Shown here in pieces: positions 43,782 through 49,311 of a stretch of 64,000 bases of DNA (the first letter of the stretch is position 1; each line of letters opens with the position of its first letter). The notes beneath the pieces are model-generated. The model did not search any database, was not told where the DNA came from, and saw nothing but the letters and a program-made list of their open reading frames with translations. The translations under genes and the position numbers were made by a program. Origin of the DNA: Cyanobacteriota bacterium (GTDB lineage: Bacteria > Cyanobacteriota > Cyanobacteriia > PCC-6307 > Cyanobiaceae); contig JAPLIB010000096.1 of NCBI GenBank assembly GCA_026389335.1, positions 1-64,000 of the forward strand. The letters run 5' to 3'.

Positions 43782-44579
43782 TTACGGACTGACGGCCGGA
43801 GCCTCAGCGGCTGGCTGCGGCCGGGTTTCAAACCTCAGCAGCATGATACCGGCGTCATCCAGCAGCTCGAAGTGGCGATCGACGAAGCGCCAGCGCCGTA
43901 CCCGCTGCAGATCGCTCAGGAAGCGGCGCTCATCGGCCATCACTTCGGGCTCGCACTGAAGGATGGTGCTATCCAGCTGGCCGAAGCTGAGCCGATTGTC
44001 CTCCAGGCGGTAGGTGCCTTCCAATCGATTGCAGTCGCCGCTGCCGCTCACGGTGGGGCTGATCGGATCAAGCCGCAGCTGCACCTCCTGACGCGCCGCC
44101 TCGGGGGAAGCCGGCACGCTGGCGGCGGGAGCCTGGAGCCAGGTCACACCACGCAGGGGCGCATCCCCCACCGGGATCATCTGCAGCAACAGAGGAGTGG
44201 CAGGATCTGCAATCACAGGCTGAACCGTGTCGGTGCTGAACAGCAGGCGGCCGGCTTCGCTGATCACGGCTCTCACTCTGTAGCGATGACCGGATTTCAC
44301 CATGCCATCGACATAGGGAATGCGGAAGTGGAATGGCGCCCCTGAGGCCGCCTTGAACCTGGCCTTACCGAGCAAGACAGCAGGGGCATCGGCAACACCG
44401 ATTTCCTGCAACTGGGCTTCGAAAATGGCGTCGGGTGGTACCGGTAGGGGCAGCTTCAGCGTCGCCGTGCCTTCCAGGGATCCAGCCAGAGCTGGCGATG
44501 CAATCCCCACCAGAATGGCCAGCAGCGATCCCATCGCCAGCAGGGCAGCGCCATGGGATCGACGACGGCAGACCATCAA
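43782..44579 (-). CDS. YbaY-like plus META-domain exported protein
   Basis: This 265-residue exported protein has a signal peptide (ALLAMGSLLAILVGIASPAL then AG). A YbaY-type barrel domain follows (SLEGTATLKLPLPVPPDAIF, FRIPYVDGMVKSGHRYRVRA, FSTDTVQPVIAD), and then a META/HslJ-like domain (ISPTVSGSGDCNRLEGTYRL, ERRFLSDLQRVRRWRFVDRH). META domains occur in heat-shock and outer-membrane proteins. No lipobox Cys follows the signal peptide, so it is probably soluble in the periplasm. It lies 52 bases after the oxygenase gene on the same strand. Confidence 0.75.
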   Translation of the reverse strand: MMVCRRRSHGAALLAMGSLLAILVGIASPALAGSLEGTATLKLPLPVPPDAIFEAQLQEIGVADAPAVLLGKARFKAASGAPFHFRIPYVDGMVKSGHRYRVRAVISEAGRLLFSTDTVQPVIADPATPLLLQMIPVGDAPLRGVTWLQAPAASVPASPEAARQEVQLRLDPISPTVSGSGDCNRLEGTYRLEDNRLSFGQLDSTILQCEPEVMADERRFLSDLQRVRRWRFVDRHFELLDDAGIMLLRFETRPQPAAEAPAVSP

Positions 44580-45594: not shown

Positions 45595-46195
45595 ACGAAA
45601 CTGGCTGCTGAGCTGACACGGCTGGACCATGACATTCGCAAGCCCTCGCTTCAGGAACCCTAAGAGCTGACATAAAAACGCTTCAGGCACCCTTGCCGCC
45701 GCTGAGGCTGCCGTCGATGAAGCCGATGCTGACTGGCGTTCTGGAGATCACCCAGCCCGATCGATTGGCTTCCGCACAGGGTTTTCAGCCGTCTCCCAAC
45801 AGACCGCGAATCCCAGCAGCAGCCAGTTCAGGCGGCGCGCTCCTCGTCGGTTGAGCTCCAGTTCGGCGTTGATTGGCAGCATTGTCAACACAGGCGGCTT
45901 GCCCGTCGAATCGCCTTCCGTGCCGTGGGGCTCGCTGGCGCGGTTGCAGTGAGCCCTTTCAAAGCTGCGGAACACCTGGCGCCCATGACCTGACACCCTC
46001 CGGCACCACAAGCTGATGGACACGACAAGCTGATCAACAGAGCGCTCAGCAACAGAACGGTCTGGATACGCTCAACCTCTCGCCACCTCCTGGTCAAGGG
46101 CCCATCACCCAGTTCCAGGGTCCCGGGCCCGCCTTCCCCCCTGTTCCTCTTCATGCGGTCATGACACCGACACCATCGCAGCCCAGGACCAGTCC
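45595..46195. other. Divergent gap, no confident gene
   Basis: About 600 bases separate the oxygenase from the protease operon. A minus-strand frame ending at 45748 contains MLPINAELELNRRGARRLNW and LLLGFAVCW, which could be a short one-span peptide of 44 residues, but I have no support beyond the open frame. The rest shows no coding signal or repeat. The protease-operon promoter should lie in 46000-46190. Confidence 0.35.
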
Positions 46196-46744
46196 ATGAC
46201 GAAACTGCCCTTTTCGCTGCTGCTGCCGCCACTTCTGCTGGCCATCGCCTGGGGTCAGGAACTGATCGACCAACTGCTTTTCGCTGGTCATTGGAATCTG
46301 GCGATGCTGCCGGGGGGATCGATCCTGGGCGTCCTCACCGCCCCCTTCAGCCATGGCGGGTTTGGCCATCTGATCAGCAACAGCCTCTGGTTCCTGCCCC
46401 TCTCCTGGCTCGTGCTGGCCAAAGGACGTCGCGATTACCTGGCGGTCTGGATCGGCGTCTATGCCACGGCCCTTCCGGTCTGGCTGTTCTGGCCGGTGGG
46501 TAGCCACGGCCTCTCCGGGGTGATCTACGGCCTGCTGGGCTATCTGCTGGTGATCGGCTGGCTGGAGAAGCGGCCGCTGTCGCTGTTGTTGTCGTTGGGC
46601 TGTCTCCTGCTCTATGGCGGCATGTTGCCGGCTCTGTTGCCCCTGCTGAGCCCCGCCGGAGTGAGCTGGATCGGTCATGCCTCCGGCTTTGTCGGCGGCG
46701 TTCTCGCCGCCCTGGCCATCCATCGCGAACCCTCCCCTGCCTGA
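46196..46744 (+). CDS. Rhomboid-family intramembrane serine protease
   Basis: This 182-residue membrane protease has about six segments. It has the HxxxN block H58-LIS-N62 (GGFGHLISNSLWFLPLSW), the catalytic Ser107 in GSHGLSGVIYG (GLSG in place of the usual GxSG with Ala) and the catalytic His161 in IGHASGFVGG. All active-site elements are present. It is the first of three overlapping or closely spaced protease-family genes and is 17 bases ahead of the retropepsin-like gene. Confidence 0.9.
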   Translation: MTKLPFSLLLPPLLLAIAWGQELIDQLLFAGHWNLAMLPGGSILGVLTAPFSHGGFGHLISNSLWFLPLSWLVLAKGRRDYLAVWIGVYATALPVWLFWPVGSHGLSGVIYGLLGYLLVIGWLEKRPLSLLLSLGCLLLYGGMLPALLPLLSPAGVSWIGHASGFVGGVLAALAIHREPSPA

Positions 46745-46761
46745 GCGCCGAGGTCCTGTCC

Positions 46762-47883
46762 ATGCTCCCGCCCCTGCTGTTGGCCCTGGTCGCCGCCCTG
46801 ATCCAACTCAGGGGCCAGCCGCTTGCGGGGGGGATCCTCAGCGGTAGCGCCAGCTTCCGTCTGGAGCGGGCCAGCGGCGGCGACACGCCAGTGCTGACCC
46901 TGAACAGTCCCGGCGGCGTGGTGCGGCTGTTGCTCGACAGTGGGGCCTCTTCCACGATGGTGACCCCAGCTTTGGCCCACAGGCTGGGGCTGAGCAGCCA
47001 GGTCCTGTCCAACCAGGAGCTGGAACTGGCTGCTGGTGGTTCAGGTTGCGCCGCCCTGAGGCCCCGCCGCACCCGCCTGCCTCCCCTGGAGTTGGCCAGC
47101 CTGGAGCAGGTGGGTCAGCTGCGACTGAGCGGCATCGAGGCCCTGCTGCTGCCAGTGGCAGCCCTGCCGCCTGGGATTGACGGCGTACTTGGGATTCCCA
47201 GTCTGCGGCAGCTGCCTTTCTGGATCGATCCCCAGCGCCACCGGCTCGCCCTGGGAGCCGCGGCCCTGCAGGCCGCCCGCGATCATGACTCCTGGGCTCG
47301 TGGTCCACGGGGTCCTCTCTCCCAGGTTCCCGTTTCCCACAACTCTGACTCCCAGAACCCCCTATCCCGTGGCGCCTTCGGGAATGGTTCCATCACGACT
47401 GGCCCCATCGGGACAGACCCCATCACAGCTGGCCCCCATGGGGCTGGCCTCCTCAGCGCTGGCAGCGTCAGGATCGCCAGTGAGCAGGCCCAGGTCATTC
47501 CCTTGCGCTGGCGGCGCGGCGTCCCGCTGTTGGACTTGAACAGCCCGGGCGGAACCGTGGCCGCGCTGGCTGACACCGGCGCCGAGGGCTTGTTCATCAG
47601 CCCGGCCCTGGCGGCCAGGCTGCAGCCCCAGAGCCCTGGCCAATCCCTGCGATTGACTGGTTTCTGCGGTGAGCAGGACGTGGAGTTGCGGCGCTACGCC
47701 GGCCTGGCAATGCCTGGAAATGGCAGACCGCCAAACCAGCCAGCGGTCCTCGAGGCCATTCGCATCGAGAATCCGATTTTTGCCCAACTCGGGGTGGAGG
47801 CGATCGTGGGTCAGGAACTACTGCGCAGCCGGCCCCAGCTCTGGCGGCTGGAGAGCAAACCACCCCGGCTGGAGCTGCGATGA
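46762..47883 (+). CDS. Two-domain retropepsin-like aspartic protease, exported
   Basis: This 373-residue protein has an N-terminal hydrophobic signal or anchor (PPLLLALVAALIQL). It has two retropepsin-like halves: VRLLLDSGASSTMVTPALA with DSG at 59-61 and VAALADTGAEGLFISPALA with DTG at 271-273. The halves match each other, like a single-chain pepsin-type pair. Between them (about 172-240) lies a low-complexity region rich in Gly, Pro, Ser and Thr (GPIGTDPITAGPHGAGLLS) that looks like a repeat expansion. The stop overlaps the CPBP gene start (ATGA). Confidence 0.85.
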   Translation: MLPPLLLALVAALIQLRGQPLAGGILSGSASFRLERASGGDTPVLTLNSPGGVVRLLLDSGASSTMVTPALAHRLGLSSQVLSNQELELAAGGSGCAALRPRRTRLPPLELASLEQVGQLRLSGIEALLLPVAALPPGIDGVLGIPSLRQLPFWIDPQRHRLALGAAALQAARDHDSWARGPRGPLSQVPVSHNSDSQNPLSRGAFGNGSITTGPIGTDPITAGPHGAGLLSAGSVRIASEQAQVIPLRWRRGVPLLDLNSPGGTVAALADTGAEGLFISPALAARLQPQSPGQSLRLTGFCGEQDVELRRYAGLAMPGNGRPPNQPAVLEAIRIENPIFAQLGVEAIVGQELLRSRPQLWRLESKPPRLELR

Positions 47884-48443
47884 GCCTGATCCCCCTGCTG
47901 TGGAACCGCCTCGTCGAAGCCGTGATGGTCCCCTTTGCGCCGCTGCAACTGCTGATCGTGCTGGGCCTGTTGGGGCTCTATGGGCTGCTGGCCCTTCCAC
48001 TGGCCTGGGGGTCGGGCCTGCTGCGGCGCCCCTGGCGCCAGTTGACACGACGGCGCTGGCTGCGGTTAGGGGCCAGCCTGGTGCTGATGCCGGCGTTGCT
48101 TGAGGAAGGGATCTTCCGGGTGTTGCTGCTGCCCAGAGCGTTGCTGGATCTGGCACCCCTGACCCAGGCGACCTGGGCTGCCTTGAGTGTGGGACTTTTT
48201 GTGCTCTATCACCCCTTATCCGGCAGGTTGTGGTATGCCCCGGGGCGCCGGCTGTTTGAACAAGCCCGCTTTCTACTGCCCTGCAGCCTACTTGGGGCCG
48301 CCTGTGTGTTCGCCTATGTCAGCACCGGAGCGCTCTGGGCACCGGTGCTGATCCACTGGGTCACGGTGCTGATCTGGCTGGGCCCCGGCGATGGGACCAA
48401 AGATCTCATGGATAGGCATTCGGCACAAAGAACTGCTCATTGA
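47880..48443 (+). CDS. CPBP-family glutamic-type intramembrane protease
   Basis: This 187-residue membrane protein has the Abi/CPBP motifs: EExxxR at E75-E76...R80 (LMPALLEEGIFRVLLLP), the second motif His111 (LYHPLSG), and His159 in GALWAPVLIHWVTVLIW. In this family the Glu and His residues form the active site. It overlaps the preceding aspartic protease gene, and its last 38 bases overlap the convergent ppk2 gene. Confidence 0.85.
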   Translation: MSLIPLLWNRLVEAVMVPFAPLQLLIVLGLLGLYGLLALPLAWGSGLLRRPWRQLTRRRWLRLGASLVLMPALLEEGIFRVLLLPRALLDLAPLTQATWAALSVGLFVLYHPLSGRLWYAPGRRLFEQARFLLPCSLLGAACVFAYVSTGALWAPVLIHWVTVLIWLGPGDGTKDLMDRHSAQRTAH

Positions 48444-49311
48444 GCGGCGGGCGCTGATAGTCGCCACCGCTCTTGCGGGGCGGGAGTTTGATCGCCTTGG
48501 GCGTCATGTCCTCGTAGGGCACCTTGGAGAGCAGGTGGCGGATGCAGTTGAGACGGGCCCGCCGTTTGTCGTCGGCTTCAACGGTGAACCAGGGCGCCTC
48601 GGGAATGTTGGTGTGGGCGAACATCGCATCCTTGGCCCTGGAAAATTCTACCCAGCGATCGCGGGATTCCAGATCCATCGGACTGAGTTTCCAGCGCCGC
48701 GCCGGATCTTTGAGGCGGGAGCGGAAGCGTATTTCCTGCTCTTCATCGCTCACCGAGAACCAGTATTTGATCAGGGTGATACCACTGCGCACCAACATGC
48801 GCTCAAATTCGGGACAGGAGTGTAGGAACTCATCCGCCTGGGAGGGTGTACAGAACCCCATCACCTTTTCCACGCCAGCGCGATTATACCAGCTGCGGTC
48901 GAAGATGACAATCTCGCCGGCAGCCGGGAAATGCTCTACATAGCGCTGGAAATACCACTGGCTTTTCTGTTGATCCGATGGGGTGCCAAGGGCTACCACA
49001 TTGCAACCGCGGGGATTGAGTGGCTCGGTGATGCGCTTGATCGTGCCCCCCTTGCCGGCAGCATCTCGCCCTTCAAAGATCACGATCAAGCGGTAGCCGG
49101 TGTCTTTGATCCAGTACTGCATTTTCACCAACTCCACCTGGAGCCGGATCAATTCTTTCTCATAAAGACGACGATCCAGGCGCCCTGAGCCGGCACCGGA
49201 GGTCTCAGCATTCAGATCCTCAAGCGTGGCAGAGGGATGGTACTGGTCGCCATTGAGGTCAGTCGCTGGCACCTGCTTGCCATGATTCTCGCCAGATTTG
49301 TGCTTACCCAT
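48406..49311 (-). CDS. ppk2: Polyphosphate kinase 2
   Basis: This 301-residue PPK2-family enzyme moves phosphate between polyphosphate and nucleotides. It has Walker A FEGRDAAGKGGTIKRI (81-89), the lid region NPRGCNVVALGTPSDQQKSQ, and Walker B IVIFDRSWYNRAGVEKVMGF with D138-R139. The length fits class I (one domain, mainly making ATP or GTP from polyphosphate). A conserved 52-residue protein is encoded 36 bases upstream on the same strand and may share the transcript. Confidence 0.95.
   Translation of the reverse strand: MGKHKSGENHGKQVPATDLNGDQYHPSATLEDLNAETSGAGSGRLDRRLYEKELIRLQVELVKMQYWIKDTGYRLIVIFEGRDAAGKGGTIKRITEPLNPRGCNVVALGTPSDQQKSQWYFQRYVEHFPAAGEIVIFDRSWYNRAGVEKVMGFCTPSQADEFLHSCPEFERMLVRSGITLIKYWFSVSDEEQEIRFRSRLKDPARRWKLSPMDLESRDRWVEFSRAKDAMFAHTNIPEAPWFTVEADDKRRARLNCIRHLLSKVPYEDMTPKAIKLPPRKSGGDYQRPPLNEQFFVPNAYP

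Follow-up and report, generated by a model that had tools for sequence, protein, structure and literature searches.

Retropepsin-like and CPBP protease genes as a possible envelope-processing pair beside a rhomboid gene in picocyanobacteria

In the 64,000-nucleotide stretch that we analysed (hereafter the window; contig JAPLIB010000096.1 of a member of the Cyanobiaceae), genes for a rhomboid serine protease (RHOM), a retropepsin-like aspartic protease (RETRO) and a short glutamic intramembrane protease (CPBP) follow one another, and the last two look like a deeper unit than the trio. We tentatively propose that RETRO and CPBP form a pair that processes envelope proteins and that the rhomboid is a housekeeping protease and a genus-specific neighbour, a reading that we place narrowly ahead of the one in which the three genes are merely neighbours. 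RETRO would be an exported, single-chain pepsin-like enzyme with a disulfide between Cys96 and Cys302 joining its lobes, and its targets would be membrane-anchored proteins, cut on the outer face of the plasma or thylakoid membrane. Within the membrane, CPBP would cleave these substrates or related ones, the sharing of substrates and the order of cleavage being presumed, and the rhomboid would be an older protease with a housekeeping role, its gene having come to lie upstream of the pair in a single genus. The retropepsin-CPBP gene pair is a concrete genetic handle and is also found in Synechococcus and Cyanobium records that are not titled metagenome assemblies, for example in Cyanobium sp. 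Morenito 9A2 and Synechococcus sp. J7-Johnson.

The arrangement given in the preliminary description is borne out by the open reading frames and by Pfam: the three families stand head to tail on the plus strand, with a gap of 17 bases between RHOM and RETRO and an ATGA overlap between RETRO and CPBP (Table 1). RHOM scored 58.6 bits against Rhomboid PF01694 (cut-off 22.6), RETRO scored 57.6 bits against Asp_protease_2 PF13650, above the cut-off and in two stretches, and CPBP scored 40.8 bits against the Rce1-like PF02517 (cut-off 22.4). The catalytic residues, which had been reported as all visible, are complete in the window and nearly always conserved among aligned relatives. The GxSG serine and the distal histidine of RHOM are kept in all sufficiently long rows of 46 (window included) except the frame-broken row of G025, the rows of G005 and G036 being cut by contig ends, and the EExxxR, FxxxH and C-terminal His motifs of CPBP are kept in 30 of 30 rows (window included). 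In RETRO, the D[ST]G and hydrophobic-hydrophobic-Gly motifs of each lobe are conserved in 31 rows (window included) with three exceptions, namely G023, which has DTA in lobe 2, G040, which has no lobe 2, and G021, in which the last motif is lost at a frame break. A hydropathy scan (19-residue window, cut-off 1.5) gave five segments for CPBP and four for RHOM, against the six membrane spans expected for RHOM from its family.

Table 1 Features of the protease cluster and its downstream neighbour (positions in the window)
Feature	Position	Strand	Remarks
RHOM, rhomboid serine protease	46196..46744	+	182 aa; Ser107 (GLSG, a GxSG motif), His161, H58/N62; Pfam, alignment
RETRO, two-lobed single-chain retropepsin/pepsin-like aspartic protease (predicted fold)	46762..47883	+	373 aa, hydrophobic N-terminus; Pfam, alignment, AlphaFold2
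RETRO lobe 1	46843..47256	+	residues ~28-165; D59-S-G, Cys96, DGVLG; approximate boundaries
RETRO inter-lobe linker	47299..47490	+	residues ~180-243; low pLDDT, length varies, almost missing in G011
RETRO lobe 2	47491..47880	+	residues ~244-373; D271-T-G, Cys302, EAIVG; approximate boundaries
CPBP, short glutamic intramembrane protease (Rce1-like)	47880..48443	+	187 aa; E75E76xxxR80, F107xxxH111, H159
PPK2, polyphosphate kinase	48406..49311	-	convergent; bounds the slot at its distal end; outside the protease unit

Genes of the three families were sought in 99 genomes, comprising that of the window, 41 further ones of the same genus and 57 more distant ones, and RHOM was matched in 81, CPBP in 53 and RETRO in 32. 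Within the genus RHOM is present in all 42 genomes, CPBP in 37 and RETRO in 26; outside it, RHOM occurs in 39 of the 57 irrespective of RETRO and CPBP. The full trio was found in 12 of the 42 genus genomes, 11 of them with the short CPBP (G000, G007, G011, G015, G016, G017, G021, G028, G031, G032 and G033) and one, G034, with a long form, and in none of the 57 genomes searched outside the genus. The trio of G028 is split over two contigs, the RHOM contig stopping within the first 47 residues of RETRO, and those of G007 and G021 contain frame breaks, due perhaps to decay or to errors of assembly. RHOM adjoins RETRO in 19 of the 26 genus genomes with RETRO; in another 16 genus genomes it is followed directly by the long CPBP gene, without RETRO, and in seven it lies beside neither. 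Among these last cases, the contigs of G023 and G026 break off no more than 0.4 kb away, and in G027 only a fragment of the N-terminal domain of the long CPBP protein is left.

The preliminary description had suggested that the three proteases act stepwise at the membrane to release, for example, an anti-sigma factor, a signal peptide or a pheromone. The chemistries are compatible, the genes form one apparent operon, and the trio recurs in the genus as described; however, RHOM is there regardless of the other two, RETRO and CPBP are separable, and the selective regimes differ. Against relatives of the window's clade, dN/dS was 0.08-0.10 for RHOM (four comparisons), 0.24-0.44 for RETRO (five comparisons) and 0.20-0.41 for CPBP (five comparisons). 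Thus all three genes are under purifying selection, with dN/dS below 0.45 each, and RETRO and CPBP evolve about equally fast, roughly 3-4 times as fast as the far more constrained RHOM. A conserved substrate gene upstream of RHOM was not found either: the 505 bases there (45691-46195) hold six open reading frames of at least 25 codons, five of which match the window alone. We therefore consider an obligate three-step regulated intramembrane proteolysis highly improbable. An antisense frame at 45885-46232 was rejected as a gene, its matches being confined to two close relatives, each under two locus identifiers, in pieces of 17-20 residues at 75-82% over the RHOM start and of 40-60 residues at 45-50%. 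Scans for promoters and terminators gave no sigma-70-like site and three terminator-like sites, against 1.9 in shuffled sequences.

It is quite possible, instead, that these are three independent quality-control or processing proteases in a shared slot, kept together by operon inertia and having no joint function. The slot runs from RHOM through variable content to PPK2 and holds RETRO with short CPBP, RETRO with long CPBP, long CPBP alone or RETRO alone, depending on the species; a convergent PPK2 lies downstream in 29 of the 42 genus genomes and a LuxR-type gene takes its place in eight others. RETRO and CPBP occur together in 22 genus genomes, RETRO only in four (G010, G019, G037, G039), CPBP only in 15, and neither in one (G027). 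There is thus no sign that either needs the other, since RETRO occurs without this CPBP in 4 of 26 genomes and CPBP without RETRO in 15 of 37, single absences being unsure because many of the surveyed genomes are incomplete drafts. In addition, RETRO lies apart from RHOM in 7 of the 26 genomes.

Two observations speak against mere neighbourhood and for the pair. RETRO and CPBP share a 4-base ATGA-type overlap in six genomes of the window's clade (the window and five sisters), start codons of relatives being picked by a nearest-position rule, and their linkage recurs among loci that have no or one other gene in common. RETRO adjoins CPBP in 12 of the 22 genus genomes having both; in the six genomes with RETRO beyond the genus, those of the families that were found are far from one another or on separate contigs, and in none of these genomes are RETRO and CPBP close. 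Among named genomes, 67 RETRO loci were found, of which 38 are of Synechococcus/Cyanobium type (L136-L173, some titled only 'cyanobacterium') and 29 are others. A CPBP-bearing gene lies downstream of RETRO on the same strand in 21 of the 38 picocyanobacterial loci, including L140 with its interrupted long gene and the frame-broken L137 and L139, and no CPBP gene was found in the examined flanks of RETRO at the 29 named loci outside the picocyanobacteria; these counts are not independent of the genus counts, because some genomes belong to both sets. At L169 and L170, RETRO stands beside a paralogue of the long protein that lacks CPBP. With the start codons chosen, RETRO and CPBP are separated by 10 bases in both L153 and L158 and overlap each other in L165.

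Flanks of up to 10 kb a side were compared for 14 of the 67 named loci (blastp E 1e-15, at least 35% identity over 80 residues). The window-type locus L138, with RETRO and a CPBP gene, shares no other open reading frame with L143, L144, L164, L165 or L168, and L154 shares none with these five or with L158 and L170; a 2-oxoglutarate oxygenase gene is common to L138 and L158. Because the flanks turn over almost completely between loci, the RETRO-CPBP linkage has outlived its surroundings. The RETRO tree agrees with this order of depth, as CPBP adjacency is scattered over its picocyanobacterial part and RHOM adjacency falls within one subclade of 18 rows (97/96). The alignment behind it (A2) comprised the window and 49 loci picked for diversity from the other 63, L139, L173, L174 and L184 having been set aside earlier, and the tree used 36 of its 50 rows (L186 and above dropped), with L170 counted as adjacent to a long gene despite its CPBP-less neighbour. 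Nevertheless, adjacent genes may persist through closeness alone, which counts against the pair. The record behind L139 (CALPNT020000061.1) is titled 'Bifidobacterium breve' and has the gene content and order of the window's cyanobacterial clade; it is probably a mislabelled MAG.

The view of RETRO as a two-domain protease, with a D[ST]G motif in each lobe, was confirmed. Its AlphaFold2 model (mean pLDDT 84.1, pTM 0.80; weak at the first 8 residues and the linker) predicts a single-chain, two-lobed pepsin-like fold. The model superposed on 9iy9, a putative endopeptidase of Bacteroides fragilis that is likewise single-chain and two-lobed, over 254 residues spanning both lobes (VIA Z 20.9, rmsd 3.1), on pepsins with Z of about 15, and on tethered HIV protease with TMt 0.60-0.70. 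9iy9 was also the best PDB sequence match of RETRO, over lobe 1 (E 3.2e-9), although it comes from a different phylum and is only 15% identical. The linker is rich in Gly, Pro, Ser and Thr and is long in the window and, judged by protein length, also in G028 and G007; a repeat check did not explain it by tandem repeats.

The signal or anchor that had been assigned to RETRO is less firm. The hydrophobic N-terminus has only about 14 residues, lacks a lipobox and a basic n-region, and continues into a conserved ALIQL segment that is part of the fold; signal peptides can be recognised by eye in some relatives. A further indication of location comes from the cysteines. Cys96 and Cys302 lie 37 and 31 residues past the catalytic Asp of their lobes, a spacing that we take to correspond to the flap position in such aspartic proteases. 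Of 50 rows, 45 have both, five have neither and none has a single one, and 36 of the 45 rows with both carry no further Cys. Since the two are retained or lost jointly, they probably form a disulfide between the lobes, which would place the enzyme in an oxidising compartment and hence make it an exported one. The five rows without them are all from Nostocaceae, where the loss was probably one event. RloA and RimB of Pseudomonas are examples of the same retropepsin chemistry in bacteria, and RloA carries a disulfide close to its flap as well as a signal peptide; however, both are dimers of one-lobe subunits, whereas RETRO has two catalytic lobes in one chain, and in the main text of that article the RloA operon parallels RimB-RimK and the word 'rhomboid' is absent (PMC12239564).

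The short CPBP of the window has longer relatives. In 22 of the 37 genus genomes having this CPBP, the domain forms the C-terminal end of a protein with about 800-940 residues, and 15 more distant CPBP loci comprised eight long and seven short forms. In a tree of 59 of 71 domains (after removal of duplicates and of sequences shorter than 150 residues), all 44 picocyanobacterial domains form one group (99/95), and the short form of the window lies inside it with eight other short forms (93/75). The junction with PPK2 was checked at 12 loci: CPBP and PPK2 overlap tail to tail by 38 bases at five loci of the window's clade (48406-48443 in the window, and four sister genomes), by 10 bases at four long-type loci and at the short-type L092, and not at all at two loci (18-base gap). 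Because the 10-base junction is common to both forms, and from the tree, the CPBP of the window is likely the C-terminal domain of an ancestral protein of about 820 aa, from which some 600 N-terminal residues were stripped at the same site. The N-terminal domain may have been lost more than once, since the tree requires four changes between short and long; it does not settle how the short forms branch in detail (93/75). In G031 and G033 the domain is a separate gene elsewhere in the genome, and in the window genome there is just a paralogue of 1006 residues, on another contig (G000:C142; 43% identity in the best-scoring stretch).

The cluster thus points to a cyanobacterial protein domain without a family, which occurs in fusion either with a protease or with a hydrolase-like region. 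Its roughly 600 residues (about residues 45-640 of the protein encoded at L143:12239-14674) gave only chance-level matches in Pfam and NCBIfam, a profile search of the PDB at E 0.1 found nothing for the long protein, and an AlphaFold2 model of the long protein from 11 rows (mean pLDDT 48.9) was too poor for use. H356, H377, Y400, N407, C489, Q491 and D492 are invariant among the eight relatives aligned, of which two are close kin, and we presume from the order of His377 before Cys489, as a conjecture, something like a permuted papain/LRAT-like hydrolase or acyltransferase. One could speculate that the trio is the remnant of an undescribed cyanobacterial system of envelope processing that in more complete form consists of RHOM, RETRO and a fusion of this domain with CPBP, as in L154 (G034), the domain being a putative third catalytic activity and RETRO being gated by the Cys96-Cys302 disulfide across its two flaps, which would tie processing to redox state; as a whole this is rather unlikely.

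Searches of the open-licence PMC literature gave nothing on a system of rhomboid, retropepsin and CPBP, of which the preliminary description likewise knew no example, and no named substrate of a cyanobacterial retropepsin or CPBP protease was found there. For CPBP, a precedent is the myxosortase MrtX, a glutamic intramembrane protease that acts on exported proteins; its substrates are MYXO-CTERM proteins, and the available text mentions no retropepsin partner (PMC11980579). AMR4 and AtSco4, of a cyanobacterial/plastid CPBP clade, have an uncharacterised role like the CPBP of the window, again with no retropepsin partner mentioned in the available text, and a plastid protein descended from a cyanobacterial CPBP is required for biogenesis of the organelle, its substrate being reported as still unidentified (PMC7542359). 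The known system nearest to RHOM is the rhombosortase RssP of the GlyGly-CTERM system, also an intramembrane protease of the rhomboid family, from a bacterium with an envelope (PMC3237569, PMC6219818).

These sorting enzymes (MrtX, PMC11980579; RssP, PMC6219818) suggest another explanation, in which a rhombosortase-like RHOM and a myxosortase-like CPBP would trim C-terminal anchors and RETRO would trim the products further in the periplasm. RHOM shows a weak likeness to rhombosortase TIGR03902 (26.8 bits), but this is below the cut-off of 84, and the search for GlyGly-CTERM proteins gave no match in the window genome or in any of 14 control genomes and is hence uninformative; we regard such a system as quite unlikely. 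A defence or bacteriocin-immunity cassette seems extremely improbable. CPBP proteins are frequently annotated as 'abortive infection', and this name is what favours it, but PADLOC at E 0.01 gave no match for the three proteins and two long relatives, and presence in the genus is widespread and apparently vertical.

Several neighbouring genes may be recorded here. The paralogue of the N-terminal domain has a GFSGGG stretch that by eye resembles the nucleophile elbow of hydrolases, and a relative matched Lipase_3 at 11.8 bits, below the cut-off of 22. In the window genome (L225:4165-7849, G000:C142), a gene for a 251-aa membrane-type protein precedes that of the 1006-aa protein with GFSGGG and N-terminal domain, and in G083 (L230) a 1292-aa version of the latter is followed by the long protein with N-terminal domain and CPBP; CPBP aside, the proteins of L225 and L230 matched no named family above the cut-off. 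At L143:10911-12242, in Synechococcus sp. RedBA-s, a 443-aa membrane protein with a zinc-ribbon-like C-terminus (25.8 bits against a cut-off of 27.3) is encoded between RETRO and the long CPBP gene, and the distance between RETRO and CPBP in L144, L146, L150, L155 and L168 is similar in size. Near the cluster in the window, a gene with META and YscW-type domains lies on the opposite strand (43782-44579), and another META-domain gene is found directly upstream of RETRO in L143, whose neighbourhood otherwise differs.
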